Made by a program: the position numbers and the translations under genes
DNA from: Strix aluco
Taxonomy: Eukaryota > Chordata > Aves > Strigiformes > Strigidae
Assembly (NCBI RefSeq): GCF_031877795.1
Contig: NC_133954.1
Location: 7,903,256 to 7,967,255, forward strand
Reading direction: 5' to 3'
Length of the DNA: 64,000 nt
Notes under the pieces: model-generated
What the model saw: the letters and a program-made list of their open reading frames with translations, nothing else
Told to the model about the DNA's origin: nothing
The model's database searches: none
Part shown: one piece after another, positions 1,453 to 49,539 of the stretch
How positions within the stretch are numbered: the first letter of the stretch is position 1
How the letters are laid out: every line of letters starts with the position of its first letter

Positions 1453-3100
1453 ACTTCCACGATGAATGGGACCTCCGATGAGCCTCCCACCTCTGCTGTC
1501 CTCTTAGACAACTGCTACTTCTCTCAGGTCATCTTTAACAACGTGGAGAAGTTTTATGTTCCCGGAGAAGACATAACCTGTTATTACACCCTCACACAGA
1601 ACATTGATCCTCGCGGGAAGGACTGGGTGGGAATCTTCCAGGTGAGTGAATACTGTGAAACCGGTTGTGCCAAGTGTGAGGAAGCAGAAGTAGGCAGAAA
1701 CAAATAGCTTGGGCTTTGATAGAACAGGGTTGGGGATTTTTTTTCGCAGAATCACAGAATCATCTAGGTTGGAAAGGACCTTGAAGATCATCTAGTCCAA
1801 CCGTTAACCTAGCACTGGCAGTTTCCAACTACACCATATCCCTAAGTGCTATGTCAACCCACCTCTTCAACCCCTCCAGGGATGGGGACTCCCCCCCTGC
1901 CCTGGGCAGCCCATTCCAACGCCCAACAACCCCTTCTGCAAAGAAATCCTTCCTAAGAGCCAGTCTGACCCTGCCCTGGCGCAGCTTGAGGCCATTCCCT
2001 CTTGTCCTGCCGCTGGTTCCTTGGCTCAAGAGACTCATCCCCCCTCTCTGCACCCTCCTTTCAGGGAGTTGGAGAGGGCCATGAGGTCTCCCCTCAGCCT
2101 CCTCTTCTCCAGACTAAACCCCCCCAGTTCCCTCAGCCGCTCCCCATCAGACCTGTGCTCCAGACCCTGCACCAGCTCCCTTGCCCTTCTCTGGTCACGC
2201 TCAAGTCATTCAGTGGCCTTTTTGGGGTGAGGGGCCCAAAACTTTCAGTAATAACCTGGTGTAATGGAACATCTTTATTGTGCCTAGGGACAAAGTGCCA
2301 GACCTGTTGTGGTCTGAAGAGCTTCAAGGCTGAGCAAACACCGATTATTCTTTCATGCATAGACCACAACTCTCAGAAGTCAGGATATCAGTGCAAAATT
2401 CCTCCCAGTAACTGATCTATATGGAAATACAGTCCCATTACCATAGGATAAACATGAACTGAGTGATGCCATATAACAATTTTGCTGTTGCAGGTGGGAT
2501 GGAAAACAACGCGGGAATGTTACACATTCATGTGGGCTCCTCTGCCCGGTGACATCCACAGGGACACCCCTGTGCAACAACAGATCTGTTTCAAAGGTGA
2601 GTTGGGAGCTTGGGTCACTCGGGGGATGGATGTACACAAGCACACACAGCCACGCACAGGCAGACTCCCACTTTGCTGCCACTAATAAGCGCTACGTTCG
2701 GAATTACAGAATATCTGTAGGATCATGCTTTGGGGGACTTATTTCAAATGCCATAATAAATCACAAAATTTTGAATCTGCCAAATTCTGCCATCCTGACT
2801 AAGTGATACTGTTCTTATCACTGCCACAAGGAATTACTCACAGTGCAGGAACAATACTGAACTAGGATGTCTCAGTTTTCTGGGGTTCTCACTTTCTGTG
2901 CTGTGTAGTTAAGACACTTGAATAATTAGAAGCTGCATATGATGAGGCTGTTGTGTTTCTTTGAAGCTTGCTACCTACCGAAAGATGATGAATACTACCA
3001 GTTCTGCTACGTCGATGAGGATGGCATGGTCCGAGGAGCCAGTGTGCCTTTCCAGTTCAGAGCAGAAGCTGAGGATGATATCCTGGTGGTTACCACACAG
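1453..3100 (+). CDS. CALCOCO2: CALCOCO2 exons 2-4: SKICH domain and CLIR motif
   Basis: Three exons (1453-1641 with ATG at 1462, 2494-2596, 2967-3100) encode residues 1-139. The reading [20 protein letters not shown] and the later DWVGIFQ and [15 protein letters not shown] segments are diagnostic of the SKICH fold of NDP52/TAX1BP1/CALCOCO1, which recruits NAP1/SINTBAD-TBK1 and the ULK complex. The last exon ends [13 protein letters not shown] falls at residues 133-136, the same numbers as the human noncanonical LC3C-interacting motif. All three donors are strong (GTGAGT, GTGAGT, GTATGT). An antisense CR1 copy sits in the intron between the first two of these exons. Confidence 0.95.
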
Positions 3101-6100
3101 GTATGTGTCCTCTCTTCCCCTGCGTTTTACTGCCTCTGCTTTTCGTGGCATATGCTCACTGCTAACGGGGAGTGATCCGGTAAATTGGATGCTGAGATAG
3201 AACTCAGCAGACTTGGATACTAATCTTGGCTTTTCTACTGATCTGTCACACAAATTTGGGCAGCCTTTTTTTCTCTACCTGCCATTTATCATTTAGATTG
3301 TGAGCTCTTTGAAATGCAGAGTGACTTAATGCATAATGTTTCAGGATGTTTTGAATATTTTTAAAAGAAAATGTCATTTTTATGGAATCAACCCACCAAT
3401 AAATGGGAGTAAGCACGTGCCCATGGTCTGGTCTGTGCTAGTAGTGAAGGCACGGGGAGGTACACGGTGTTCCCTGTGCAGGGCTCAGCTTGCTTTGCTC
3501 TTCACCCTGTGCTATTTGGAATGGAGCTTTTCGGTGCTCCTGTATGACCACATGACTTTGTTTCTTGCCAGGGAGAAATGGAAAAGATTGAACTACAACA
3601 CAAAAATTTGCTTAAAGAAAAGGAGGAGCTGCAAGCAAGCTGTGCAGGACTCCAGAAACAAAACAGCGATCTGCAGGAAGAGCTCAAGAACACACAGGTA
3701 CACAAAAAAGTTAATACGAGAAGTCAGAATAAAGCTGTAAGCCTGAAGGATGAAGAGGGACTGAGTCAGGTCTTGCTTCACTGTATGCTTCCAGGAGAAA
3801 ATTTAGGAGGTTTCTCCCCATATTATCTGTTTAATCCTTTACCAAATCATACGACACCTCTACTGCAATAAGAAGGATAATGATGAACAGGAGACATCTT
3901 CAGGCACGGGAGCCAGGAATGGACAGGAAGGAGAGTGTTTAAAAATGTTATGTAGGCTGTCCTGAAATCACGTTATCGCTACCATTTCCTCCTGAAGTTT
4001 TGCTCAGGGCTTCATATAAATGCATCAGGGGCTGAAAGCGTCGTCAGGATGCAAAGGAGAGATTTTCCTCCTTCACATGGGCTGCCTGGCAGTGTTGCAT
4101 TTGAGGGTTCTTGCAGTTCCAGTGCAGAGCAGGAGTATTGCTTGGGTCCCATTTACCTCCTGTTGACCTCTCTGTGATTTTCAGGACAATTTAGAGTCTC
4201 TAAGGAGCAACACAGAGAATCTGGAGCTGGAGCTGAATTCCCTGAAAAAGGAAAAGCAACATCTAAAGGAGCTGGATGACTGCAGAGAGGCAGAACTGCA
4301 CGAGTAAGTGTATTTACAGCACATCTCAAAACAGGATTTCCTGTAAGCACCTTGCCTTGATGGATTAAATTTCCACCTGTGAATGTATGGTGTGTTTTGA
4401 TTTGTTCTGAGTAGACTCAAAGCGCAAATTCAGAACGTGATCTCTGACAAGGAACAACTGGACACCAGACTGAAAACAGCCCTGGATCACATGGATCAGC
4501 TGCAGGTAGCAAACATACAGCTTTGCTTTTATGAACTGTCTCTGATGGAACCGGTTTCCCTCTGACAGAGGAGTGAACAATCTTGAGCCAGTATGCGGTG
4601 TACAAGCTTTGCTAGTGATCTGTCACACAAATCTGGGCAGCCTTTTCTTCTCTACCTGCCATTTTTCACTTGTCTTGTGAGCTCTTTGTAATGGGGAGTG
4701 ACTTAAAACATAGTGTTTCAGGGCATTTTGAATATTTGTAAATGAAAATGTCATTTTTATGGTAACAGCCTGCCATTAAACGGAGTAAGCACATGCCCAT
4801 GGCCAACAGTTGAGGTGCTGTGAAGCCAAGCACTCTCTTTGCAGTGTCTTGTGTGCAGCCCTTTTGTTAATGACTAGACTGCACACATGGTCCTGATCTA
4901 ACAAACTGCAAGAAGCCCCAGAGCTCTGCCTCTGCGACTTCTGCAGACACAGAAGGCGTTGAGCATCTCCAAAGATCAGGGTAGTATGTGCTCAGTGTTC
5001 AGGAACTGGGTTGAGGGTCAGCTTTGGGCAGGCTGGGGAGAGGGAAGCAGCAGTCTGGTCTGTGCTAGTAGTGAAGGCACGGGGAGGTACACGGTGTTCC
5101 CTGTGCAGGGCTCAGCTTGCTTTGCTCTTCACCCTGTGCTATTTGGAATGGAGCTTTTCGGTGCTCCTGTATGACCACATGACTTTGTTTCTTGCCAGGG
5201 AGAAATGGAAAAGATTGAACTACAAAATAAAAATTTGCTTAAAGAAAAGGAGGAGCTGCAAGCAAGCTGTGCAGGTCTCCAGAAACAAAACAGCGATCTG
5301 CAGGAAGAGCTCAAGAACACACAGGTACACAAAAAAGTTAATATAAGAAGTTAGAATAAGCTGTAAGCCTGAAGGATGAAGAGGGACTGAGTCAGGTCTT
5401 GTTTCACTGTATGCTTCCAGGAGAAAATTTAGGAGGTTTCTCCCCATATTATCTGTTTAATCCTTTACCAAATCATACGACACCTCTACTGCAATAAGAA
5501 GGATAATGATGAACAGGAGACATCTTCAGGCACGGGAGCCAGGAATGGACAGGAAGGAGAGTGTTCAAAAATGTTACGTAGGCTGTCCTGAAATCACGTT
5601 ATCGCTACCGTTTCCTCCTGAAGTTTTGCTCAGGGCTTCATATAAATGCATCAAGGGCTGAAAGCCTTGTCAGGATGCAAAGGAGAGATTTTCCTCCTTC
5701 ACATGGGCTGCCTGGCAGTGTTGCATTTGAGGGTTCTTGCAGTTCCAGTGTTTGGGTCCCATTTAGCTCCTGTTAACCTCACTGTGATTTTCAGGAGCTG
5801 CAGAACAATTTAGAGTCTCTAAGGAGCAACACAGAGAACCTGGAGCTGGAGCTGAATTCCCTGAAAAAGGAAAAGCAACATCTAAAGGAGCTGGATGACT
5901 GCAGAAAGGCAGAACTGCACGAGTAAGTGTATTTACAGCACATCTCAAAACAGGATTTCCTGTAAGCACCTTGCCTTGATGGATTAAATTTCCACCTGTG
6001 AATGTATGGTGTGTTTTGATTTGTTCTGAGTAGACTCAAAGCGCAAATTCAGAACGTGATCTCTGACAAGGAACAACTGGACACCAGACTGAAAACAGCC

Positions 6101-9100
6101 CTGGATCACATGGATCAGCTGCAGGTAGCAAACATACAGCTGCTCACCTTTACTTTTACAAACTGTCTCTGATGGAATCGGTTTCCCTCTGACAGAGGCG
6201 TGAACAATCTTGAGCACAAGTAGGTGGTGTATGAGTTTCTTTTTTGGTTATGTGGGTTCTTTAGGAAAATGTCAATCTTTGATATGATTTGACCTCCAGA
6301 AAACCTCAAGAATGCTCTATTCTGGAAGGAATGTTTGAGGGTGATGTGCTAAGAGAAACTGTAAGGATTTTATTCTCTAAAAACATCCCCTTTGCTTGCT
6401 CATGAAGTTGATCAAAATTCCACTGTTTACCTCCTGCTAGCTAATGATTCAGGCAGAAAACACTTCTGTTTTAGAAAACATTTGATAATTATATTCAGTA
6501 CTTCAGTGAAAACAAGCCTAGCTGGGAGGTGTGTGAAGGGAGAAGGTAGATTGAAAATAGCTTAGTTGTTAGGTTTGGGTCACAGGAGACCCAGAATGAT
6601 GGGTTAACCATCAGGCTATAGAGTCTCTGTTTTTCTCTCTCTCCTCTGACTTCCCAGACTAGAAGTGTTGTGTTGAAACTTAGCTCTTCACAGAACGTAT
6701 GAATGAATACTGTGTTCTGATGAATACATCAGCTCCAGTATATCTCCAGTTTCTACAAAGGTTTTAATGAAAAAATGTTTGCAGAAAAAAAATTCAAGCG
6801 ACCATAGTTTCTGGAGCTTTGCCTTCTGTAGCAAAAGGTGCCTGTGCTGTTTGATCTTCACTTTTTGCCCACTCATCTCTCTCCTTAGTCTCAGGTGTTG
6901 AGTTATGAGAAAGAAGTGGAAAACTTGTCTCTCATGGACCGTGACAAGGCAGAGGAGCTTGAACATTTAAAGGAAGAGAATCAGCAGTTACGCATGAGTA
7001 GAAGTCAACAGGTAAAGCCTTCCCTGATTATCACGGTGCTTGGAGGAGCCAGGCTGGAGAGATTGAGGCATCCTCAGCAGTGAACACGTTCAAATATTGC
7101 TCAATCTTACAAGAATCTAAGGGATTCCGTGACAGAAAGAGAAGTGTCCATGGTGGCGTGAGTGTCCTCATAGGTGGTTCTGTGAACACACCATCTGACA
7201 GATTCTTACAGTCTACATCTATTCTTATAGTATACATTTTAGTTCTGGAAGAAACATCTGTGTAACTAGAGATTGTAATTCTGATTCTCTGTAGCAGGAA
7301 CATTCAGTCTCTGTCTTGATCTCTTTTGAGTCAGCTCAGGGGATAAAGTAAATCGGTGGAAAATCAGGATTAATATTCGGCTGATTGCGAGTCATTGCAT
7401 CTGAGCATAATTGTTTCAGGACTGGGACTTAGGGGTGAATAAAACAAGTTACCCTAAATCTGCCCAGACTATATGCTGTTAATTTTACCTCCCAACAGGA
7501 AGCTGACTAGTAATTGGTGTGAGGCAGCAACCTTGCTCCTCTCCTCTCCTCTCCTCTCCTCTCCTCTCCTCTCCTCTCCTCTCCTCTCCTCTCCTCTCCT
7601 CTCCTCTCCTCTCCTCTCCTCTCCTCTCCTCTCCTCTCCTCTCCTCTCCTCTCCTCTCCTCTCCTCTCCTCTCCTCTCCTCTCCTCTCCTCTCCTCTCCT
7701 CTCCTCTCCTCTCCTCTCCTCTCCTCTCCTCTCCTCTCCTCTCCTCTCCTCTCCTCTCCTCTCCTCTCCTCTCCTCTCCTCTCCTCTCCTCTCCTCTCCT
7801 CTCCTCTCCTCTCCTCTCCTCTCCTCTCCTCTCCTCTCCTCTCCTCTCCTCTCCTCTCCTCTCCTCTCCTCTCCTCTCCTCTCCTCTCCTCTCCTCTCCT
7901 CTCCTCTCCTCTCCTCTCCTCTCCTCTCCTCTCCTCTCCTCTCCTCTCCTCTCCTCTCCTCTCCCCTCCCCTCCCCTCCCCTCCCCTCCCCTCCCCTCCC
8001 CTCCCCCCTCCCCTCCCCTCTCTCCTCTGATGTTTTTGACTCTTTCTTATCCTTAATATCTCAAATTTAGCATTTAATAATCAATAACATAAATGCAATA
8101 TGCTCAGAATGCACCAAAATAAGCTGTAAACAATGCAAAGTTTCTGTTCCGTACTTTGGTGCTCTCACCCACATCCTTCTCTGACACCTCTTTGCAACTC
8201 TGCTTGTGAAAATCTGGGATTTCTGTGCAGAAGGAGCAAAATAAGGAGCTTGAACATTGCATGGAAAACTTGAAGGGGTCAGAGGCCAAACTCTCACTTT
8301 GTCTGTCCCCCTGTCTGCAGGATGAGCAGGTGCCCAGCGTTGCTGGCAGCTGGGGAGATGGTCCTAAAAGTGCTGAGCACAGAGCTCTGCTGTATTGTAT
8401 GGAACCTGCTGGTACCTGTGCAGGGGAGCTGAGATTCACTCACAGCACTCTTTTCCACCTTCTTTTGAGTTGCTGAACCATCACAATTTCCCTGTGATGT
8501 TGCAGATTTCTATGTGTATAACAAATTCAAGTTTATGGACAAAAGTCTTGCTTTTCTTAGGTAGCTTCTGCAGACCTTTTAGAAGTGATAGACAAACCTC
8601 AGCACTGGAAATCACTCCTTGAAGGAATGTGAAGGATATAAAAGGGCAGCATGCTGTGGCATTTCTTTCCACTGAAGAAACCATCATTGGCAATGACTGA
8701 GGCCGTCACATCATCTTTAGCCTGTTGCCCTGAGTGACCTTCTAAAGGTGCTTCTCCCTCTGTCTGTGCTACTCAGGAGGCTTTTGGAGGCTCTACCCTC
8801 ACTTCAACATTGAAAATTAGATGCCTAAAATAGATGATGTGATTACCTCCGCTGTGATGCCAAATGTTCAGGATTCTCAGAGTGATGCTTTGAGAATGAC
8901 TGCAGAATCCCTGAGTGCTCCATCTTACCTAATTTACTGATTGAATTCAGGAGTCAGCTACAAGATTAATTCCTAAGGATGTGTTAGCTATCCAGCGTCA
9001 ATGCAAGCCTTGCAGCACCAGGAAGCCCGGCAGACTTGGCTAGCTCTCACCTGCCAGGGTGGATTTTTCAGCTGTTTGTGTTCCTTTTCTTCAACCTCCC

Positions 9101-11381
9101 TCTTTCTTTGACCCTTCAGAGGTCATGTGTCATCTCACACGTTGTAATGAAAATAGAGTGTGAGTGGTGACGTGGGGATATCCTAGGGGACAAACTATGA
9201 AGTGGTAAGACTCCCATTGAAAGTGAAGGGTTATTTCTTGGTAATAAATGCAGCATGAGACAGCTCCAAGCACTGGATCTGTCACTGTTTTATTTGCCAG
9301 TTTCCCAAATAACACTCTTCCTTCACAGCAACAGAACTCCAACTTAATTAAAGAACTTGAGGAGCAGAAGGGTTTGGTTCGGGTTCTGCAGGCAAGAAAG
9401 AAGGAAGCTGATGAGGAAAATCAGGTGAGAATGTGGCTCAACTCCCTCGCCTTTCTCCTGTGTTGAATATGACACTAATCACTCAGTCTAGCGTTCAGTT
9501 CCATTAACCCTTCTACCAAACGGGTCCTAATCATGCCTGCACGTGGCCCATCACCCAAACCCGGCTGCCAGGCTGTCTGCAGGCACGTACAGGTGACTCT
9601 GTGGGTACACTCACAGCCTGTTGTTGCTGTCACGTCTGTACAACCTAAGAGGAAGGGTCAAAAAACTTGCACCTTTTTCCCCCACCACAGAATAGATTGG
9701 TTGACCCATAATAGCACGGAGATTTTCAAAAGCCCCTAATGTTACCTTAATTCTGACACCACTGGTATGAATGGACTTACGCATTTAAATGGTCATAGCA
9801 TTTTTGTCCAGTCTAAGCAATGACTGCTCAGATTTGTTCCATACTCTGCATGACTTCAGTATAATCTTCTGTCTTTTAAAGTGTATTACTCTATTGTGAT
9901 CATCCTGTCTGCCTTTCCGAGCAGGCCACAGAACGGATCCTTGTCCTTCCTTACCTCACTTTCCCATTCAGTCAAGCAGGACCAACACTGAGCTACCTAA
10001 AAGAAGTTCAGAGCAATTTTGATTCTGATATCAGAGGATCTATTTTAGTGCGAAGTAGGACTTTTCTCTGAAATGGTCTCCTGAGCTTCTGGAAATTCAT
10101 TCTGACCTTCTGTCCCTTTGCAGAAACTAAGGAAACAGAATGACAATCTTCTGAGGCATCTCTCGCAGGCTTCTTCACCAGCTCAAACTTCAATTCCAGC
10201 TTCTGAACTAGGAGGCCTTCTGTTTGGAAATCCATATTATGGTGAGATTACTTGGCGTTCTGTCTGAAACTGCAAATACATGGCAGTTAAAGTCTCAGCA
10301 AATTATCCTCCCTCTCGAATTGAATGCTGTAGAAAAGACATTATTAGCAGCACCTCTGTGCAGCTTTGCATGTGTGCAGATGACTTGGCAGCTGCAAAAT
10401 GCTGCCAGGTGTTGAGAGTTGACTTAAGTGATCAGCTGTCTGTTCATTTTCTGCCAAGAGAGACAACTATTAGCTAGTTTATTCAGCTGTGAGACTGTTA
10501 GTTCTGTGCTTATATCCAGTTTCGATAGTCCTAAATATGGAGGTTTAGATCCAGAGCCACATCCTCATGTTTCAGGAATTACTAGTTATCAGCACATCAC
10601 ATTGTTAATCATTTTGCTGTGGCTAAATGGACTTCTTTTTCCAGCTGCAGGAGCAAACCTGGGAGCAGGAGCTGCAGATGTAAGTAAAATGGACACAACT
10701 GGACATGAATTAGTGTTTATGCGCATGAACTGGTGGTTTGAAATAGAAAGCTCCAAGTTCAGCTCTGTAGCCAATTGTCTACATACTGGTTTAGTCCTCG
10801 TAAGATAGCAGACAGCAGAATGGAGCCATGTATGCTTAACGTGTAGAATTAATGAGAGTTATATATCTTAAGGAAGAGAAAGGAAACTGTTGACCTTAAT
10901 CTTTAAGGCCCAGCTCTTGGCAGCTTCTAATGTCAGAATGAGCAGCATGCAACTGCTCAAAACCTTGTTTCGTACTGGAGACATGGACATGTGCTATGAA
11001 GGATGGAAAGTCAGGGCACCTCACAGAAGCTCTTGACTTTTAAATGCTATTTAGAGAAGCCTGGAGATATTTGAAAGCTTGAGAATGTTAGAAGTCAGAA
11101 AGACTTGTCCAACAGTGATAATATCTGTCTACTAAACCTTTCTGCTTCTTCTCTTTCAATATAATTTTTTAACTGACTTTATTTGCATTTGCTTTGTACT
11201 TCAGGCTTCTCTAAGGAAATGTCCCATGTGCAATGAAGTATTTCCTGAAGATATTGAGACAAGTCAGTATGAGGCCCATGTGCACAGCCATCTGCTGGAG
11301 TGCCCATTCTGCAGCGAGACCTTTGAAAAGTCCAATAAGCAGGTGTTTGATGACCATATGTTTTGTCATGACCTGGAATAA
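1462..11381 (+). CDS. CALCOCO2: CALCOCO2 (NDP52), selective-autophagy receptor, 15 coding exons
   Basis: CALCOCO2 is a cytosolic receptor that links ubiquitin- or galectin-8-marked cargo (damaged vacuoles, bacteria, mitochondria) to LC3C and the autophagy-initiation machinery. Coding exons read by eye: 1462-1641, 2494-2596, 2967-3100, 3572-3697, 4185-4303, 4415-4505, 5199-5324, 5795-5922, 6034-6124, 6889-7011 (or from 6895), 8231-8329, 9329-9424, 10124-10241, 10645-10679 and 11205-11381 (stop TAA). Phases join without a break into about 581 codons, against 446 residues in human. The excess is mainly a tandem duplication of three coiled-coil exons. Order: SKICH domain (about 20-127), ILVV LC3 motif (133-136), long coiled coil, GNPY segment, two zinc fingers. 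The start is the first ATG after the intron-1 acceptor and matches the family's N-terminus. The 8231 exon is the least certain. Confidence 0.95.
1747..2245 (-). mobile_element. CR1 LINE 3' end, antisense in CALCOCO2 intron
   Basis: On the minus strand this reads as the end of CR1 ORF2 followed by the 3' UTR. The peptide remnant includes [15 protein letters not shown] and [20 protein letters not shown]. The left end, read in reverse, finishes with the CR1 terminal ATTCTGTG repeats. It is a 5'-truncated, non-autonomous copy with no full ORF. Confidence 0.92.
3230..4602 (+). repeat. CALCOCO2: Tandem duplication inside CALCOCO2, unit 1 (three coiled-coil exons)
   Basis: Unit 1 of a direct repeat carries exons 3572-3697, 4185-4303 and 4415-4505 (112 codons) with their introns. 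The peptide starts [20 protein letters not shown] and ends [10 protein letters not shown]; heptad-like Leu/Glu/Lys spacing indicates coiled coil. The block begins and ends in phase 0, so its duplication keeps the frame. Unlike unit 2, the middle exon lacks nine bases (it starts DNLESL rather than ELQNNLESL), and about 250 bp of intron present in unit 2 (about 4802-5054) are missing. Confidence 0.93.
4608..6232 (+). repeat. CALCOCO2: Tandem duplication inside CALCOCO2, unit 2
   Basis: Unit 2 carries exons 5199-5324, 5795-5922 and 6034-6124 (115 codons). Exon pairs differ from unit 1 by one H-to-N change in the first exon and one E-to-K change plus three extra residues in the second; the third pair is identical at the DNA level. 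Splice sites are intact in both units, so both are probably used. The left intronic part (4617-4801 against 3243-3427) is clearly more diverged than the rest. Confidence 0.93.
6889..9424 (+). CDS. CALCOCO2: CALCOCO2 exons 11-13: distal coiled coil
   Basis: Exon 6889-7011 reads [20 protein letters not shown] and onwards, matching the human LSTQEKEMEKLVQGDQDKTE block. Two acceptor AGs six bases apart (start 6889 or 6895) are both in frame. Exon 8231-8329 starts [18 protein letters not shown] but then runs into a pyrimidine-rich stretch, [10 protein letters not shown], and its donor (CAG|GTGCCC) is weak, so its 3' boundary is uncertain. Exon 9329-9424 reads [20 protein letters not shown] and ends at a good donor (GTGAGA). 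The intron between 7011 and 8231 holds the CTCCT array. Confidence 0.8.
7536..8022 (+). repeat. CTCCT pentanucleotide array grading into CTCCC
   Basis: About 85 near-perfect CTCCT units run from 7536 to 7960, followed by roughly a dozen CTCCC units. The array is pure pyrimidine on the plus strand and purine on the minus strand, in a CALCOCO2 intron. The long Leu/Ser/Pro open frames across it are artefacts of the repeat. Confidence 0.98.
10124..11381 (+). CDS. CALCOCO2: CALCOCO2 exons 14-16: GNPY segment and two zinc fingers
   Basis: Exon 10124-10241 ends the coiled coil and contains LLFGNPYYG, aligned with human LAYGNPYSG, the galectin-8 contact region. The small exon 10645-10679 (12 codons, Ala/Gly rich) has alternative acceptors six bases apart. 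The last exon, 11205-11381, encodes two zinc fingers. The first has CPMC, then HVHSH. The second has CPFC, then HMFCH, followed by DLE and stop; this last one corresponds to the ubiquitin-binding zinc finger of NDP52. Finger 1 has a complete Cys2/His2 set here, whereas human finger 1 is atypical. Confidence 0.92.
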
Positions 11382-19801: not shown

Positions 19802-20290
19802 CCACAGAATCACAGAATCATCTAGGTTGGAAAAGACCTTGAAGATCATCCAGTCCAACCATTGACCTAACACTGACAGTTCCCAACTACAGCATATCCC
19901 TAAGTGCTAAGTCAACTTTACTCTTAAACACCTCCAGCGATGGGGACTCCACCAACTCCCTGGGCAGCCCATTCCAACGCCCAACAACCCGTTCTGTAAA
20001 GAAATGCTTCCTAATATCCAGTCTAAACCTTCCCTGGCGCAGCTTGAGGCCATTCCCTCTTGTCCTGCCGCTGGTTCCTTGGCTCAAGAGACTCATCCCC
20101 CCTCTCTGCACCCTCCTTTCAGGGAGTTTGAGAGGGCCAGGAGGTCTCCCCTCAGCCTCCTCTTCTCCAGACTAAACCCCCCCAGTTCCCTCAGCCGCTC
20201 CCCATCAGACCTGTGCTCCAGGCCCTTCACCAGCTTTGTTGCCCTTCTCTGGACATGCTCGAGTCATTCAATGGCCTTTTTGTAGTGAGG
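19802..20290 (-). mobile_element. CR1 LINE 3' end, antisense
   Basis: This is a second copy in the same orientation about 250 bp to the right. The minus strand reads [20 protein letters not shown] and [20 protein letters not shown]. It ends beside the CpG island, so this promoter region is bordered by a retroposon. Confidence 0.93.
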
Positions 20291-20439
20291 ATGCCTCCCG
20301 GCCATGAGGAGAAGGGGCGAAACAACCCCCACCCCCCTCACAAAGCCCCTCCCCAGGCAGCGCCTCACTGCCACCTCCCAGAGGCCCCTGCGCAGCACCT
20401 CGTTGAATATTCAAATCAGCTCGCTGTTCACAGCTGTGA

Positions 20440-20960
20440 TTGGCTGTGGCTGTTCAAATGAAGCCACGCCTCCCTGGGCGGGGTGGGGCCGTTAGCGGCC
20501 GTTGGTTTGGGGGCGGGAAAGGCGGCCGGGAGCGCTGGAGTGCGCATGTGCAACTCCTGCGCACGCCCGTGACGCCGGCGCGTCCTCTTGTTGCCGTAAC
20601 AACACCACCCCGCCCCTTGCTGTTTTTATCCAATCAGAGACCCTCCTCACCGCTAGGCCCAATGGCGCGGCAATATGTTAATAAAGGGGCGGGGCGGAAG
20701 GGGGATGTGCAGGTCGTTTTGCCCAATCAGAGGGTGGGGAAGGGTAGGGGTCTGTTCGCCTCAGCCTGCTGCGGGCCTGGTGTTTCCCTCAGCGGCTGCC
20801 GGGGCGGGATGGGGTCGCGCTCCCGCCTGCTCCGCGGAGGTACCTCCCCTCCCGGCTCGGCCCTGCCCGTGCTTCCGTGTAGGCCGGGGGGGCGCGGCCC
20901 GGTCCCGCGGGGTGCGACCCCCTCTCCTTGCTCCGAGCTCGGCGGTGCCTGCTGAGGGCG
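20440..20960 (+). promoter_or_regulatory. CpG-island promoter upstream of the TTLL6 relic
   Basis: A dense CpG stretch with several GC boxes (GGGGCGGGG), CCAAT boxes at about 20629, 20657 and 20724 and a TATA-like TTAATAAAGG near 20687. GTTGCCGTAACAAC at 20590-20603 is close to the RFX X-box (GTNRCC, 0-3 bases, RGYAAC; one mismatch), a site typical of ciliary genes. A plausible first exon follows, with ATG at 20811 (MGSRSRLLRG) and a donor-like GAG|GTACCT near 20842, but no further coding exon can be joined. It may be the old TTLL6 promoter, possibly still driving a noncoding RNA. Confidence 0.65.
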
Positions 20961-21977
20961 GGGGGAGGAATGGCGGTCGCTGTAAGGGCGCTCCTGGCCG
21001 TCAGTTCCTGCTTGGGGAGTCTCCCAGTGGCGTTGAGTTAATGTCAGGTCCTACGTGATAACTGCAGGGATGAAACCTTGAGGGGAAAAAAAAAAAGTGC
21101 CTCAAAAGTTGTGTTGTAGCCGTAAGATGGGTTCTAGAGTCCGCTCCTGGCGCAAGGGTGGAGCGTTGGGAGATCGTTTGCACTGCCTCTTGAAGGGGGA
21201 AGCCAAAATAATTGTGGTTTAGTCAATTCCTAAAGGACTAGTAAATTTACATTTGCGCAGGGGTCACAGCATTAACACAGCACTTGAATTGTTAGAAATC
21301 AAAAGCTTTAGTGTCTGTGCGTCTTGTTTTGCACAGAAAGTTTGGCAGCCTGTCTCGGAATTCCCCCATTGATGCAGTTGACTTCAGACACGTGCTACCA
21401 GTCATTAGAGTATTTCTTTATTGGCCCCAGAGTGTCCCCAGTTGTTCTAACACTTGCTCTTTGCAAGGATGCACTATCCCTAATGTTTAATCTTTCTGAA
21501 GTACTAGCTTGTGATCATTATACATATTTCTCTCATAATGACTGAAGTTAGGCAAGAAGTCAAAACTTAATATGCCTGTGAGCTCTTGCCAGTATTTTCT
21601 GGATTCGTGCCTTGAGAGAACATGAAGAAGCACTGTAAATGGCTCCGATCCCAACGCAAATAAAGCATTATTCAGAGTCGTATTCCAGGAATCTTTGTTT
21701 TTTCACCACTCATCAGAAATATCAATGGAACTGTTTGTTCTGGGAGTTATTGCTAGCTAGTATGAAGCTTCTGAAACAAAAATTGTTGGTTTGTTTGGTA
21801 GTCATTTATGACTAATTGCCCAGATTATCATCTAAAGCAGGCAGTTTGTAAATAATACATCCGCAGTGAGCAAAAGCAATCCACCTTGATTGATTGCCAA
21901 GGTCTAATTGAACGGCGATTCTACATCTCCCTCTGAGTCCAAATAGAGTTTGAAATTACAAATCTGCATTCTCTTGA

Positions 21978-22115
21978 AACTGCTGCTCTGTGATGCAGCG
22001 TGTGGAGCTGCCAGCGGGATTGGCTTTTGGGGAGCAAGAGATAACGAGGAGTGAGCAGCATGCTGGACATTATACCGTCTCAACAGATCAGTTAATGGAA
22101 ATGAAAAATAGTCAA
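21978..22115 (+). pseudogene. TTLL6: TTLL6 pseudo-exon with nonsense and frameshift
   Basis: From GAT at 21992, codons are collinear with the family's DSVRRAAQRFGFREAGDNDD, reading DAACGAASGIGFWGARDNEE. The next codon, tryptophan in the family, is TGA. After TGG ACA a single T stands where a GAT codon is expected (two bases lost). In the new frame YTVSTDQLMEMKNSQ matches YSVSLERVMEMKRFQ. The donor reads CAA|GTGCTT and is weak. Confidence 0.88.
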
Positions 22116-22245
22116 GTGCTTATGAGTGTGAGTTGGTTAGGCTATATGCATATGATGATCCCTTTATTGGTTTTTTACAATCAAAAAGGTGAAGATCAAA
22201 ATACTTGTTTAGGGCTTTTTTTTTCCCCTGCACTTCTTTCCACAA

Positions 22246-22345
22246 AAAATTAGCTACTTCCCTGGAAGGGGTGAGATCTGTAGGAAATATTTGCTGGCTA
22301 GGATGGTAAAGCTCTTCCTGAAAGAATTCAACTTCTTTCCCAGTG
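22246..22345 (+). pseudogene. TTLL6: TTLL6 pseudo-exon with lost acceptor
   Basis: The reading KISYFPGRGEICRKYLLAR and then LFLKEFNFFP matches KINHFPGMSEICRKDLLAR and LFPKDFSFFP, with a small in-frame loss between them. Immediately before AAA-ATT the sequence is CACAA rather than the expected CACAG, so the splice acceptor is gone. The similarity fades after FFP. Confidence 0.85.
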
Positions 22346-22837
22346 TCTTCTTGCAGAGTAAGCCCTTAAAGCCTCGCTTCCTTCTTGGCACAATTAATTT
22401 TTGGCTATTAGATTTGAATTCTATTATTTGCATGTCAGAAGGGGCTAACTTCCAGCATATTAGAAGCCTCTGAATACTAGGCAAAGATTAATCTGCTGGG
22501 CTAGAGGAAAGCAAATAGTTTTCTCTGTTTGAAATTAGTGCTGGGAAAAAAAAAAAAAAAAAAAAACAGGAAAGAAGCAATTGTGACTTAGAACTTTTTT
22601 AAGTTCAAAGGACTGAAGGAAGGTAGTTCAATTCTTTAATCTTACAATATTTTTACAATCCTATTTGCTGTTACAGTTAAAGTTATACTTTTACAAAATT
22701 CTTTCAGTAGTTCAAAAATCTAGGCCTACAAAATCTACATTAGAAAGCAGCTTTAATGCATTATTTCATAATTTTTCTAGTGTCCCTCTCTTCTGTTACC
22801 CTCCTCATAGTTATGACAATTTGTAGCCCTATAACAG

Positions 22838-22967
22838 ATCAAGGAAACACAAGACTGCTATCTGTAAACTGGACTCTGGCTGTCAGGGCAGAGGCATCTT
22901 CATCACCAAATCTGAGAAGGACATAAAACCTGGGCAGGATATGATCTGCCAGCTCTACATCTCAAGG
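22838..22967 (+). pseudogene. TTLL6: TTLL6 pseudo-exon, reading frame intact
   Basis: It follows an intact acceptor (ATAACAG). It reads SRKHKTAICKLDSGCQGRGI, then FITKSEKDIKPGQDMICQLY and ISR, collinear with the TTL-domain ATP-grasp segment YICKPDSGCQGRGIFITR. The conserved KPDSG proline is leucine here. The donor is AGG|GTAATC. Confidence 0.9.
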
Positions 22968-24010
22968 GTAATCCCTCCATTCCATGTTTCAAGATTGCTG
23001 CTTTGTCACTGAGCTGGTGTTTCAATATCCAGCTTAGCCTTGCCTTGATGTGGTCAGTCAGCCATAAATAGCATTCACTGGTCATTTTCTTGAGATTCAT
23101 CACTGTCAAAAGAATTCATCGCTGTCAAAAGAAAAACGTCCACTTTACATGTTATTCTGTAAACTCTTGTTCAGAAATGACTTCTAATATTTTGAGGCAG
23201 AATCACCTTGAGAAGAATTCAGGGCATTCAGGATAGATGAATTGAACAAGGAAAACTTTATCCCTCTTCAGTGAATGAGCACTTGAAAGATACTCATTTT
23301 TCATGAGTCCCATTAAGCCGTATCGTCCTATTCCAAACAAGTGTCTCACCAAAGTTGGTTTTGATTGATGCTTTTAAGTCATGTCCCTAATGAAGTTTAA
23401 TATAAAAACTTCTGTAAGCGTCTAGTAGTTTGGACTTCCAATAATTTGAGGAGCAAAAGCTTAATTTACGTTGGTATCTTGTTGACCTTTGAACATACTT
23501 TATTTTATGGGCCAAATTTGTTTGACTTTGCATTGACCTCATTGTTATTTTTTAGGGAACGTTCCAAGGAAAGAATGAAAGTCTGTGAATGACTGGGAAA
23601 AAAGACCTGGAAGGGAGGACGCTTGGAGCCTCTGGCTCGGAGAAAAAGAAAGTAGGAAATCAGATCCTCTTGAGCAGGAGATAGGGTGAACTGACCCACA
23701 GGTACCTTTAATGCTGTAAATGTTTCATTCCTTCAAATGTTCATGCCTGAAGTGAACTTCAAACACTTGCTGAGCTGTACAAAGACCAGCTACAGCTTTA
23801 AATTAAGTGAAGAACCTGTGAACACATATATGAGACATCTCCAGTGTCTTTCCCAGCTCAGCGCCAAGCTAGACTATGGTGGAAGCATACCTGGCATAGA
23901 AAGGTTCAGCTGGGCTTGTCACCTTTGCTATAGCAATTAATGAGTTACCCATGTTGTTCATGTGTTTCAAGCAAGTTTAGAAGCAAAATGGCTTAAAGTT
24001 CTCCTTCCAA

Positions 24011-24154
24011 CCTTTTACTCTTGGTAGATTTGAGTTTGATCTGAGGATTTACGTGCTGGTGACATCCTGTGACCCTCTGAGGATATTTGTCTGTAATGAG
24101 GACCTTACACATTTTGCTACTTCAGCATCCTCTGACCTTTTGCATAATAGCTTG
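24011..24154 (+). pseudogene. TTLL6: TTLL6 pseudo-exon with lost acceptor
   Basis: Exactly 48 codons, the same length as the human exon, reading PFTLGRFEFDLRIYVLVTSC and then DPLRIFVCNEDLTHFATSAS. The bases before it are CTTCCAA where CAG is expected, so the acceptor is lost, while the donor GTAAGT is perfect. The second half of the exon has accumulated substitutions. Confidence 0.9.
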
Positions 24155-24970
24155 GTAAGTAAACAAGCCTATTAGCAGAAGTTAATGACAGTTCAATACA
24201 TATAGCAACCAGAGGTACAGAGAAATCATAATGGTTTGACTGTCCGAAGCATCTTTCTCTTGCGAATCTCTAAGCACTTCATAAATACTAGTAATTCATC
24301 TTTGTAGTATCTGAGTGCCATAAACAAAATTGTGCATGAAATATTTGAGCAGATTCTGTAGTAGAATGTGGCATGTGTTATATTATCCAGATCAGTGCTA
24401 CATACAAGTTTAGGCACAGTGAGTACTTCTATAAATACACACCTAATTAACTTTCTGTGTTATTCTGGTACTATTTTTCATGAAGCATTATTGTGAAAAA
24501 AATATAGTTATGAGAAAAAGAAGTCTTGGAAGGAAAAAAGGTCCTAAACGCTAAGATATTTTGGTTTACTTTATGAAAAGAAGTCGTGGCTTAGCTGAAG
24601 GCTGGAAAAGGTTCTGGTATGCAGTTCTGGATCATTCCAACACAGAATTAGCTCCACTAATAAGCGGTTGTAGAATGGGACCTGACTGAGAAAGAGGGTT
24701 ATCTTCCATTGAAACTGCTGATTTCTCAGAAGTGATGGAATTGGAATGCTGATGAGATTGCAGTGAAGTGAAATTGAAACTGTTGAGCCTCATTTATTGG
24801 GTTCTTTAGAGTAATGGGATCAGTATAGGGCTGATCATATTTAGTGCCATTAAATCTTCTGTACTTAATTAAGATGCTTTGTACATTATGCAGTGTGACC
24901 AGGATCATGTAGAGAAGAAGGGAGGAGGCTAATACCTTTCTAACCCTGCATCTTGTTCATTCATTTACAG

Positions 24971-25056
24971 GATAATGTATGCGTGCATCTGACAAATTAT
25001 TCCATTAACAAGAACAGAGTTAATTCTGCCAGAGAAAAAGACACTGGAAGTAAGAG
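24971..25056 (+). pseudogene. TTLL6: TTLL6 pseudo-exon, intact frame and splice sites
   Basis: Acceptor TTTACAG and donor AG|GTAAAA are both usable. The peptide DNVCVHLTNYSINKNRVNSA then REKDTGSK is collinear over 28 codons with DDICMHLTNYSINKHSSNFS then RDAHSGSK. Confidence 0.9.
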
Positions 25057-25834
25057 GTAAAAAGGAGAGAACATTTCTAAGCTACTCCCAGAGGGGGTAG
25101 TGTTTACCTTTTCTTGTACATCTTCATATGCTTGATGTAAGTCTTCTAGTTTCCCCAAGGCACTGTATATTTTGCTGTTGAATAAATCAGGTGAAGAAAG
25201 TCAGATGACTAACAGAATTGGACACCAAAATTGGGGAGAAAACTCCACAAAGGGGAGTTTGTACTCCAGCTTGACAGCATACATTGAATTTGTTTCAATT
25301 TTTGTCTTGAGATTAAATACTTGCTGCTTTTCCTAGGCACACTGATTTGTCTAATAAAATGTTACCACTTCTTCCAAATTTTGCTTGAAACCTTAGATCA
25401 CCATGCCATAACAATTCTACACCTTCACTGTATTTATCTTCGTCAGCTGTGATAGGCAGTTTTATATTAGTTTACTTAGACATAATATTTTTTTTCCTAT
25501 TGCAAGCATTTCTCCTGTAATGTTCCTTCTATGTTCTTTCTTTTTAAATAAATCAGCTGTACTGCTGTGATGTGCAAGGCATAAGTCTTATGAGGTGATC
25601 CAGGAGCATACATTTCTTTACATTTTGCTTCCTAACTCCTTTCCTGTACTAGGAAATGGGATTGCTCTAACTCAGTAATAGTCTGAGCAATAAGAGTTTC
25701 CAGGCATGAGTGCAGTTATAATGATATAAAGAAGCAGTACAGAGATTGAGCTATTGCAATATCAGGGTGGAAATACGCCAAATTCAGTTACATTCTGTTT
25801 GTTATCAAAGTTTCCAGTATCCTGCCCTTTCTAG

Positions 25835-26058
25835 AAAACTGTCCACTTTGAATAACTGCATGCAGAAATGTGGCTGTGATACCCGCCAGATGTGGCTGCA
25901 TATAGCAGATGTTATTATTAAAATATGGGCAACAGCACATGCAATTATGAAGCATAACTATCACATCTGCTCCCCCAGCCACACCGGGGTAGTGCTCACT
26001 TTGAAATACGCGGGTTTGATGTTATCTTGAATCACAGATCCAAGCCCCAGTTGCTTGA
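25835..26058 (+). pseudogene. TTLL6: TTLL6 pseudo-exon with one-base frameshift
   Basis: After the acceptor TTTCTAG it reads KLSTLNNCMQKC and later IADVIIKIWATAHAIMKHNY and HICSPSHT, matching KLSTFSAYLEDH, IEDVIIKTLISAHPIIRHNY and HTCFPNHT. At 25989-25990 one base is missing; in the next frame SAHFEIRGFDVILNHRSKPQ and LLE match SACFEILGFDILLDHKLKPW and LLE. The KPW tryptophan is replaced by glutamine. Confidence 0.9.
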
Positions 26059-26170
26059 GGACCCTGATAAAAGTCTTTCCTTGATCCTGCAACATGATCA
26101 TGTATTAACTGCCTTTTTTTTTTCTTCTTCTTTTCCAGCCTGTTGGTTGCCATTATCAGCCTCTTTCTTA

Positions 26171-26290: not shown

Positions 26291-29200
26291 GACTACACCG
26301 AATCAGGGGGAAAACCGGGTTTGTGCTCCCGGACACATGCGGGGAGCGTCGCCTGCCTGTAGGAGGCCTCACCTTTGCGGCCAGCTCCACTCCATCTCTT
26401 TGCATCCATAAGTTTTTCAGAGTTATACATTACCCTCGGTGGAAGTTACTGGGTAATGGAAGGTGGTTCTCAGAGCACAGCAAGTTAATGCCAGTTCCTC
26501 CTCTTCTGCTCCCAGCACGTACCGGACTGGTATCAACTCTGCATTCAACCTCAGGCTGTAATTTCAAACTGTGTTACTTATTTTTTTCCCTCTTTGCAAT
26601 ATATATAAAAACCAGCTGGCATCACCATACCAAGAACTGGCTGGATAAGAAGAGATTTTTTCCAGCTTAAGTGACTTGTTCACAAATCCTTGTTGAAACC
26701 AGCAGCAAAACTCCAGATTTCCTGTGTTACCTCTGACCTTAGATGCTGGGATCAAGCACAGTGCATCTCCTGGCCTGGCTCCACACATCTCTGTCACCTC
26801 TAAGCTATATTTAACTTCCTAATGCACCATATGTACTGTGTTCTAGGTAGCCATCAAACTGCATAGAAATTCAGTTTAGATGCAGCTTGAGGCAGGTAGA
26901 TGAGGGATCTTTTAGGAAGGGTTTTACATCAGTTATTGTATTTTACCAGTTCTAGTAATAAAAGCAGCGGGGCCAGACAGAGGGCCCAGTTTGTGGGCTC
27001 TGCTTTCTGCAAAAAAAGTTCCATGCAAAGGGATAGACTGGGCTCACAATTTCTCCTTTAGCATTTCCTGGAGCCACACAATACAAGCACAGTTAACTCC
27101 AGGCAAGTATGGGGGCTTGAGATAACCCCTAGGGTGTGGAATAGACCCATTTCTTTAGCTCATCTGTGAACTCAGATATGCTGAACAATATTGTCTCTGT
27201 TGCTCCAGACTGGGTTTGATTTTTAGCAAATGTCAAGTAAGATTTGGAGCCACTGGATGGCTACAACTCCAATCCAGACCCAAGAGATCGTGCAGTGTGT
27301 GGTCATCACCCTGCAACAGATCAGAGAGTCAGATTAGCAAGTAAAAAACACTCAGAGGACTATATTAACTGTTTTTTTTTCTGTTTTCTACTTCCAGTCC
27401 TCTAAAATCTTGATCTCCTTATGAGAATACTAAATGTCTTGTGGCAGCAGCATACTAGTTATTTGATGCGAGGAGTAGCATAGTGTGACCTACGTTACAA
27501 ACAGTGGAAGCTACAAATAAATTTGAGGACAAAAGAAGAGGAGAAGGAGAAACTAGGTGGTAATATCTCTCTGTCCAAGGACTATCACCTTCCAGAAGTA
27601 TTCTGCAAATAGTGGGTGCTAGCCAGCCACGAGTGAACTGCATTCAGTGGAAGAGGGTGCAAGTCAGTGGGCCCCATCACTTGCTAGGTTTGACTTCATC
27701 GTGTAGTAAGGAGAGATGTAAGTCAGTGGGTGATTTTTCTTCTCTAACTCAGCATTGTATCCTTGGTATACTATTTATAGATGTTAGGGCAAAACATTGA
27801 AAAAGCAAAAGATTCCTAATTTTAATTTTAAAGTGATTTAGGAAGGAAGGATTGAACGCTGCTAAGAGGGGAACCAATTTGCTTTCTGTGCTAGATGATT
27901 AATCAGCAATATTCAGCATATGATAACTGTCTCAGAAATGAAGTATGAACTTGATAGAAGTTATATTTAAAAGGGAAAACCTTGACAAGGGAGGTGCTAG
28001 CTTCTGCTGCCTTCACTTTGACTGTCATGTTGTTACTGGAGATGCTGCAGGACAAATACACTGCCAGGCAGAGGATCTTCAGGATCTGTTTTGCAAGTTG
28101 TTCAGTGGTCTCAAGCACAGGTTTAACTGAACCTGTGGGAGGGTTGTCACAAGCTGGTGTGGAAGGGTGTGCTTGCTTTCGCTGTACGATTCCAGTCTCC
28201 TTCCAAAGCATCTCTCTGTTCTGCAGTCGTCTAGTGGTAGTAGGGAGTAGCTGGGCTCAAACTGTGATGCCTTTGTGAGCAATGCACACAGGTGATGCTG
28301 AGCGAATACCACCAAAATAATGAAATCTTTTCCTGCATGCAGGTTTGTAGCATGGAGGAGCAAGCTAATTTGGGAACCCCCTTGTGAAGCAATATCCGAG
28401 CTATCTTTGACTTACTTCTCTGAGAACTGACAATGTACATGCAGCTCTGCCTTAGCTATACGACGTCCAGAATGTGAGTTCAGTCATTTAAAGGTTCAGC
28501 CTGTAGTGTGGACATACCATTAATATGTTAATTACTGTATTTCCTTTCTTATGGGGCTTAAACAAACCTCTATTCCCAAAATCTTTGTCTCCACAAATCA
28601 GAGAGATCCCCTCTTCTGTAGACAATATTGTTCACTGGGAACTGACAGAACCATTTTGTTGTTTCTTTTTTTAAATATACTCTTTGACAATTGCTTCCCT
28701 TCTTCCAGCTTTGCTAGCACATAACATCCATCGATAGATGACCCCTGAAATTTGCCTTTAAAAAAGAAATGTCAGGAGTTTGTGGGTGTCCTGATGTGAA
28801 ACTGCTGTAGTGGAACTTGATGTGTATATGCTTGCTATGATGGTAACTGATTGCTGCCAGCTCTTGTTTTGCTCAATGGAAAATCCTTTGCTAAGAATGC
28901 CGGTGTGGTGTCTGATCTGCTTAGTGGAATCCAGTTAGTGAGGAAAAAAGTTCTCTGTGCTGAACTTCAGCTGAACAGCTGAGTGCTTGCACTACGTCTT
29001 GAAAATTTGCTATTCACAAGGCAAGACAGGTTTAAACCAAACCTGTACATTTATGACTCTTCATAAGACTGTAAAGAGTATAAAAATAAATACATTAATA
29101 CGGTAATTCTACTACTTCTCAGGCTCATGAAGAATAAAGGGTGGAAGAGGCCAAAATGAGGAACACCAACTGTGATCTTGTACGTCTGGAGGGTTGGCAG

Positions 29201-44343: not shown

Positions 44344-44397
44344 GATCCGGGGACCCCCCTCGGGCAGTGCCCGGGTGCTGCCGAGCAGGCTCTCCCC

Positions 44398-44562
44398 ATG
44401 CCCCGGCCCCCACGCCGCCCCCCATGCAGCCCCCGGAGCCCCGAGGCCCCCCGGGCCTCGAGGGGCTCCTGGCAGCCGGCGGCTTCGCAGGCAGCCAGGG
44501 CAGGGGGCTGCTGCCTCCTCCCCCCCCGGCCCTCGGCGGTCCTTCGCCCCCCCCCGGGATGA
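44398..44562 (+). other. Out-of-frame upstream ORF overlapping the HOXB13 start
   Basis: An ATG at 44398 opens a 54-codon Pro/Arg-rich frame ending at TGA 44560-44562. It overlaps the HOXB13 start in another frame. Neither ATG has a strong initiation context. It could lower HOXB13 translation if the transcript starts upstream of it. Confidence 0.4.
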
Positions 44563-46067
44563 ACCCCGGTTACCCGCCGGAGGGGCCGACCGAGCCGCCC
44601 AAGCCGTGCCCCGCCGCCCCGCCGCCCCCCCCGGCCGCCCCGCCGGGTCCCGCCGCCGCCGCCCCGCTGCCCTACGGATATTTCGGCAGCGGCTACTACT
44701 CCTGCCGCGTCTCCCGCAGCGCCCTGAAAGCCGGCCCGGCCCAGGGCCCCTTCCCCGCCGAGAAGTACCTGGACCCCCCCGCGGGCAGCGAGGACTTCCA
44801 GAGCCGTCCCGCCGAGTTCGCCTTCTACCCCGGTTACGGGGCCCCGTACCAGCCCGTCGCCGGTTACCTGGACGTGTCGGTGGTACCGGGGCTTGGGGGC
44901 CCGGGGGAGGCCCGGCATGAGACTCTGCTGCCCGTGGACGGTTACCATCAGCCGTGGGCTCTGGGCGGCGGCTGGAGCAGCCAGATGTGCTGCCCCAAAG
45001 AGCAGGGCCAGGCCGGGTACCTCCTGAAATCCGCCTTTGCAGGTAAATCTCTGTGCTGGGAGAGGGCGGAGGGGGGAGCGGGGGGTGCATCGTGCGCGGG
45101 GCATTGGGATCAAGGCTTAAAATAATCTACGGGGGAGCTTCTCTTGCCGTGTGGTAACACTTGTTTGCGAGCTAGCCCAAATTAGCCACTGGGTAGGTTT
45201 CACAAAAATAATTAATTTAGATTAACACTGCCCTTTGCAACCCATCGCCCTCCGAGCAGGGAGGCAGACGGTGATACCATCCGGGTTGGGACGGTGATAC
45301 TACCCGGGTTCGGACACGGTCCCGGCAGCTGCGGGCCAGGCGCCTTCGGCATCGGGCTGCTTTAAAGGGGTTCAGGGGTGTGCACGGCCCCCACCGTGCG
45401 GGGCAGTGAACGGGGGGGGCCCTTCCCACGCTCCCACGCCGCGCCGGTGGGATTGAACTCGCCCCCGGCCCTGCTCGGCCGCGCACCGACCCCCGCAGCG
45501 AGTACGCGGGTGTCAGCGCGGGTCTCACCCACGTCGGTGCTTTGCCAATACCTGGATTTCTCCCCTCTCCCGCAATAATAATAAATTAAAGGAAGAAAAT
45601 CAATATTTAAATATAAATTTGGATAATAATTTAAATATCCTTAAATATCATCGCTCTCAGGGAGGCTGGAGGGAAGAAATGGGGTGGCAGGGAGAGAAGG
45701 TGTTGCTCGCAGGGAAAGGTGATGGGAGGTGGGTGCAGGGTGGGTGCAGGGTGCGTGGGGACCCCCCCACGGCCCCGCTCAGCCCCGTCTCTCCCTACGC
45801 CCAGACTCCACCGGGCAGTTGCCCCCCGACGGCTGCTCCTTCCGCCGGGGCCGCAAGAAGAGGGTCCCGTACAGCAAGGGGCAGCTGAAGGAGCTGGAGA
45901 AGGAGTACGCCAGCAGCAAATTCATCACCCGCGACAAGAGGAGGAAGATCTCCGCCGCCACCAACCTCACGGAGCGACAGATCACCATCTGGTTCCAGAA
46001 CAGGCGGGTGAAAGAGAAAAAAGTCGTCGCCAAAATCAAAAGCAGCAGCAGCAGCAGCACCCCGTGA
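44424..46067 (+). CDS. HOXB13: HOXB13, posterior homeodomain transcription factor, two exons
   Basis: Nuclear DNA-binding protein of paralog group 13, patterning the tail bud and posterior structures. Exon 1 is 44424-45042 (206 codons plus one base, donor GTAAAT); exon 2 is 45805-46067, ending in TGA. Total 293 residues, against 284 in human. The start aligns with the family through LEGLLAAGG. Residues 31-80 are unusually rich in proline and alanine. The conserved MEIS-interaction segments [17 protein letters not shown] (83-99) and EFAFYPGY...[13 protein letters not shown] are present, and the glycine equivalent to human G84 is kept (residue 88). The homeodomain spans about 222-281, with RKKRVPYSK at its start and [14 protein letters not shown] in helix 3. 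It ends in a short serine run before TP-stop. Confidence 0.98.
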
Positions 46068-49210: not shown

Positions 49211-49322
49211 AGGTCCCGGGTGGACGGTGGGATGGGGGAGGTCTAGTATAGTTTTAGTAAGAAAATTTTGTGTAAAAATTGCACCCTGCCCCAAGCTGGG
49301 CACACACCACATTGGCCTCTCC

Positions 49323-49532
49323 CTCTCCTCTCCTCTCCTCTCCTCTCCTCTCCTCTCCTCTCCTCTCCTCTCCTCTCCTCTCCTCTCCTCTCCTCTCCTC
49401 TCCTCTCCTCTCCTCTCCTCTCCTCTCCTCTCCTCTCCTCTCCTCTCCTCTCCTCTCCTCTCCTCTCCTCTCCTCTCCTCTCCTCTCCTCTCCTCTCCTC
49501 TCCTCTCCTCTCCTCTCCTCTCCTCTCCTCTC
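49323..49532 (+). repeat. Second CTCCT pentanucleotide array
   Basis: About 42 near-perfect units of the same pentanucleotide as at 7536, in the same strand orientation, downstream of HOXB13. Open frames across it (for example 49227-49601) are repeat artefacts. Confidence 0.98.
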
Positions 49533-49539
49533 TTTTCCC

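Follow-up and report, generated by a model that had tools for sequence, protein, structure and literature searches.

A decayed TTLL6 gene between CALCOCO2 and HOXB13 in the owl Strix aluco

We analysed a stretch of 64,000 nucleotides of the Strix aluco genome (contig NC_133954.1, positions 7,903,256 to 7,967,255 of the forward strand; hereafter the window, whose own numbering is used below). Its sequence indicates that the window almost certainly holds a unitary (non-processed, single-copy) pseudogene of TTLL6, the gene of a ciliary elongase of tubulin polyglutamate chains. A tblastn search with the catalytic domain of mouse TTLL6 (in agreement with PDB 6vzt) returned six ordered stretches on the + strand, from 21953 to 26059. 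Five of these were significant (E 1e-19 to 1e-5), while exon 1 alone was weak (E 0.2). Identical exons were recovered when TTLL6 of gavial, two turtles, tuatara and Anolis served as queries. A preliminary description of this DNA had proposed six collinear TTL-domain exons still in place, which the mouse and reptile queries bear out. Exon phases were inferred from the open paralogue TTLL13, and lesions were checked base by base. The remnant comprises the following parts:

21999..22115, + strand: exon 1 (VRRAA...MEMKSYQ), TTL region, AG acceptor and GT donor kept
22246..22357, + strand: exon 2 (KINHFPG...FFPRTWCLPAD), open, acceptor AA at 22244-22245
22811..22967, + strand: exon 3 (YGDLQTYSRSRK...QLYISR), splice sites kept
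24011..24154, + strand: exon 4 (PFIIDGFKFDLRIYVLVTSCDPL...), open, acceptor AA at 24009-24010, donor GTAAGT kept
24971..25056, + strand: exon 5 (DDVCMHLTNYSINKHS...GSK), open, both splice sites kept
25835..26059, + strand: exon 6 (KLSTFNKYM...KPWLLE), donor GA at 26060-26061 and not GT
27253..27336, + strand: scrap of the TTLL6 C-terminal tail (LDQYNSNPDLRDHTV...), collinear with the exons

Multiple independent disabling lesions were found in these exons. Exon 1 carries a tryptophan codon changed to TGA (22052-22054) and a 2-base deletion near 22070. Exon 2 has lost NMSR through a 12-base deletion, and its length gives phase 1 instead of the required phase 2, a shift of one base relative to exon 3; near its end, about 7 bases are gone. 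Exon 3 displays an in-frame TAG (22824-22826) at a codon that is Gln in reptile TTLL6, a lesion absent from the preliminary description. In exon 6, there is a 1-base deletion near 25988, KPW has become KPQ (CAG at 26048-26050), and the donor is lost, its position being inferred from the TTLL13 exon that ends in LLE followed by GTGAGG. The first stop, both frameshifts, the two acceptors changed from AG to AA and the missing KPW tryptophan had all been listed before, and all are present in the sequence. The claim that three other exons remain open fared less evenly: only exons 4 and 5 retain an open frame over the whole expected length, while exon 3 has its TAG; exon 2 is open too, yet shortened by two losses, of 12 and of about 7 bases. 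The remnant also extends beyond what was first described, as it includes the lost exon 6 donor, missing downstream exons and the tail scrap at 27253. Introns are retained throughout the six exons, with AG or GT preserved at 9 of 12 splice sites, in keeping with the earlier statement that this is not a processed copy. As judged from its lesions, the remnant is predicted to yield no enzyme.

The tail scrap was matched by TTLL6 of two turtles (E 7e-5 and 8e-5), gavial (0.002) and Anolis (0.07), and a further search gave E 0.003; the tuatara TTLL6 record ends before this region. A tail profile scored the scrap at 19 bits, whereas shuffling the region 12 times gave no more than 7.9. Between it and exon 6, part of the gene is missing. 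The coding exons that follow LLE, starting VNHSPSF in TTLL6, were not found between 15000 and 50000, nor in the 1.2 kb preceding the scrap. These exons hold H362, which according to a passage of PMC7970040 belongs to a pair of residues reported to determine elongation. Likewise, N-terminal TTLL6 exons were not found upstream of 21999. A weak tail-like match (LGASGSEKKK, 23622-23678) was considered as a displaced exon and rejected: it is out of order and scores 0.7 bits, within the shuffled range. Splice-like sites flank this rejected match.

The identity of the remnant was assessed from its read-through translation. In BLAST comparisons, this was 68% identical to TTLL6 of turtle, 63% of tuatara, 62% of gavial, 61% of saltwater crocodile and 56% of platypus, versus 50-52% to four TTLL13s. 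A tree of 38 rows placed the remnant inside the TTLL6 clade (22 rows, support 100/97) and, within it, in a set of turtles, crocodiles and tuatara (8 rows, 96/99). One feature of the tree speaks against our reading: the remnant groups with turtles and not, as the species tree would demand of a bird, with crocodilians. Its end branch measures 2.07; with a branch of this length joining the turtles, the tree does not resolve its position within reptile TTLL6, which must also be counted against us. At the level of sequence, identity and tree nonetheless confirm the remnant as an orthologue of TTLL6 and not as its paralogue TTLL13. It resembles the TTLL6 of crocodilians and turtles in its ordered TTL-domain exon content, with 61-68% identity, and unlike these tubulin polyglutamylases (PF03133) it has stops, frameshifts, lost splice sites and exons that were not found. 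TTLL13, its closest paralogue, matches it in exon phases and differs in lying at another locus (C12, 11.3 Mb), in the 50-52% identity and in having all seven examined exons open.

The remnant also changes where working genes do not. Among 150 residues that are invariant across 18 annotated TTLL6s and present in the remnant, 45 have changed. In a leave-one-out control (137-160 sites each), 17 amniote TTLL6s displayed 0-5 changes and the coelacanth 10. When 131 sites invariant in 18 TTLL6 and 6 TTLL13 references were considered, the remnant had 37 changes and the TTLL13 of the same genome 3 (Fisher p 1.5e-9). It further differs at 59 (27%) of 216 sites common to gavial, turtle and tuatara. These counts indicate that constraint on the remnant is lost. 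A neutral simulation started from gavial residues requires about 0.15-0.17 substitutions per site to change 27-30% of residues, and it predicts 3-4 stops where 2 are seen in about 277 codons. The avian neutral rate is about 1.3-2.0 substitutions per site per thousand million years. With this rate, the loss would date roughly to 75-130 million years ago, an order of magnitude that ignores lost exons and any change preceding the death of the gene. The preliminary description had held that the loss is not extremely old. We differ on this point: it is probably old, because 45 of 150 invariant residues have changed and the downstream catalytic exons were not found.

The remnant occupies what appears to be the ancestral position of the gene, as previously proposed; domain matches on both sides identify the neighbours:

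1528..11291, + strand: CALCOCO2, SKICH domain over two exons and C-terminal zinc finger
44397..46067, + strand: HOXB13, two open exons, HoxA13_N (E 4.2e-16) and homeodomain (E 2.2e-19)

The CALCOCO2 domains are Pfam SKICH at about 1528-1647 and 2933-3058 (E 1.9e-12 and 1.7e-5) and Zn-C2H2_12 at about 11214-11291 (E 1.8e-5), all on the + strand. The collinear remnant lies between these genes, which we take to be adjacent to TTLL6 in other vertebrates, in agreement with papers that name all three. CALCOCO2, the remnant and HOXB13 all share the + strand. Human CALCOCO2 presumably has the opposite orientation relative to TTLL6, so this gene may be inverted in the Strix aluco locus. Within CALCOCO2, a tandem duplication (3426-4588 and 5053-6215, spacing about 1.6 kb) spans the coiled-coil open frame. 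Three of its 300-base stretches are 98-99% identical and the final 71 bases 92%; it is either a recent duplication or an assembly artefact. The window also holds long CTCCT/CCTCT pentamer arrays at 7536-8022 (about 98 copies) and 49316-49543 (about 46 copies).

Upstream of the remnant lies a further feature:

20201..21301, no strand: CpG island, 0.7-1.8 kb upstream of the first remnant exon

Its observed/expected ratio reaches 0.82. At 20590, within the island, there is a weak, one-mismatch match to the RFX X-box (GTTGCCGTAACAAC). A scan of the + strand found 9 matches of this kind over 64 kb, which corresponds to an expectation of about 0.15 per 1.1 kb. The island is possibly the old TTLL6 promoter, perhaps a surviving promoter of ciliary type, a reading to which we attach little weight. 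Its persistence, together with exons 4 and 5 and their well-kept donors, would fit a locus that has been re-used, the island and some exons now serving a non-coding or short transcript. We regard such re-use as improbable: taken as a whole, the remnant is free to vary at otherwise invariant sites, and the X-box match is weak.

A working TTLL6 might instead exist elsewhere in the genome, the locus described here being a dead duplicate. The whole-genome searches covered one assembly of 1.41 Gb in 202 contigs. The TTL family model gave 34 matches, 2 of them within the window, and a turtle TTLL6 query gave 23, of which 4 were in the window and 7 at 11.3 Mb of C12. Eight loci and 13 fetched stretches, together covering all places outside the window that the TTL-model search listed, were then checked against TTLL6 and TTLL13; 3 of these 21 had no match at E 0.001. 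Only the C12 locus was close to TTLL6 or TTLL13 over many exons. Its pieces are 78-96% identical to bird TTLL13 in most of the TTL domain, and seven joined exons run for 352 codons without a stop. These joined exons match TTLL13 of Cathartes (96%), Anser (91%), Struthio (90%), Varanus (84%) and human (75%), along with Rhea and Corythaeola (81-82%, shorter or odd records), versus 70-74% for gavial and turtle TTLL6. Meanwhile, the other TTLL loci yielded short conserved pieces up to 64% identical to turtle TTLL6. Neither a second TTLL6 nor displaced tail exons were found in the assembly (E 0.001, best candidates scored). The preliminary description had allowed for an intact TTLL6 elsewhere in the genome; one was searched for and did not appear. 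As far as this one 202-contig assembly goes, no working TTLL6 is predicted elsewhere.

Protein searches extended the question to other species. They were made with mouse TTLL6 (best 120 of 4010 matches), gavial TTLL6 (best 120 of 6518) and the remnant (best 120 of 188), and those with mouse and gavial scored only candidates sharing most words. Among the matches listed were TTLL6 of mammals, crocodilians, turtles, tuatara, lizards, snakes, amphibians and fish, and no bird TTLL6. In the best 120 of 6518 of the gavial search, no named row was a bird and six rows were unnamed, the best of which scored 959 bits versus 1087-1216 for six turtle rows. The name TTLL6 is carried by five bird proteins (Strigops, Anas, Strix, Calidris and Pterocles; records P0231, P0258, P0260, P0263 and P0271), all of which match TTLL13 better than TTLL6 and group with the TTLL13s of birds in the tree. 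TTLL13 is likewise the best match of four uncharacterised bird proteins (Calidris, Bubo, Nothoprocta and Zosterops). Annotation thus hides the loss of TTLL6, since the five tested proteins that bear its name are TTLL13. A Cricetulus protein named TTLL13 (P0059) shares 84% identity with mouse TTLL6 across 93% of the query and appears to be a TTLL6 under the wrong label.

Given these searches, we consider a live TTLL6 elsewhere very improbable. The assembly may have gaps, and some GC-rich genes of birds were overlooked in the past, as the abstract of PMC5470226 indicates. Against this, the remnant sits between CALCOCO2 and HOXB13, resemblance to TTLL6 across several exons was seen at no other locus (isolated short pieces reach at most 64%, and the C12 locus is TTLL13), and the matches listed in the three protein searches include no bird TTLL6. 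Assembly or sequencing errors that mimic the death of a working gene deserve hardly any credence: single-base indels can be errors, but the lesions are of different kinds, including splice-site substitutions, 30% of invariant residues have changed, whole exons were not found, and HOXB13 and TTLL13 are open. A processed (retro) copy or a TTLL13 remnant has a comparably negligible chance, for although TTLL13 is the closest paralogue, introns and most splice sites are recognisable where an intronless copy would be expected, identity and tree give TTLL6, and TTLL13 itself is open on another contig.

Decay of TTLL6 in place would have proceeded as follows. Function would have been lost through a first lesion, and stops, indels, splice-site changes and the loss of several exons would have followed at an approximately neutral pace, with CALCOCO2 and HOXB13 kept on both sides. 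We infer that the loss is old, most likely preceding the radiation of living birds or falling in its early phase, and that TTLL13 or other elongases may carry the remaining task. The common ancestor of living birds had likely already lost TTLL6, leaving TTLL13 as the closest relative; the protein listings may provide good, if indirect, support for this bird-wide loss.

Gene loss in birds is well known, and TTLL6 is one more case, with the corpse still in place. The avian losses presented by Lovell et al. 2014 (PMC4290089) likewise concern conserved vertebrate genes missing from birds; passages of that study report syntenic clusters of missing genes, whereas here a single gene decays in place and leaves traces. 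In PMC12954441, as far as its consulted passages go, no pseudogenes remained after the gene losses studied, unlike for TTLL6 here. We found no title or abstract describing a loss of TTLL6 in birds, although supplementary lists of missing bird genes may include it. The main texts of PMC4290089, PMC12954441, PMC6321700 and PMC5470226 contain no word beginning with TTLL. PMC4290089 cites, in one passage, another study's list of 640 missing or pseudogene candidates, in which TTLL6 may occur. In the portions consulted of PMC8875314 and PMC10924212, TTLL6 occurs only in a reference title, and a passage of PMC8774586 names chicken CALCOCO2 and HOXB genes.

The functions attributed to TTLL6 give an idea of what its loss would entail. 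Passages of PMC7970040 and PMC13137484 describe it as a ciliary glutamate-chain elongase; mice that lack it have a reduced ependymal beat frequency. For zebrafish, one table lists mild defects of structure and motility upon TTLL6 depletion, which is also given as impairing olfactory cilia, while co-depletion of TTLL6 and TTLL3 abolishes ciliary motility. According to the same passages, TTLL6 is delivered to cilia by CEP41, which is mutated in Joubert syndrome. TTLL13 is described in PMC7970040 as a chain elongase too, one whose ciliary distribution is unknown. Since TTLL13 is also an elongase, its compensation for the lost TTLL6 is plausible. The cilia of these animals probably manage without TTLL6, because the gene is broken in place and no working copy was found elsewhere. 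If the loss is indeed bird-wide, birds would build motile and sensory cilia and sperm tails without an enzyme that lengthens axonemal glutamate chains in other vertebrates. They would then represent a natural knockout of a whole class, one that tests which parts of the tubulin code are dispensable.

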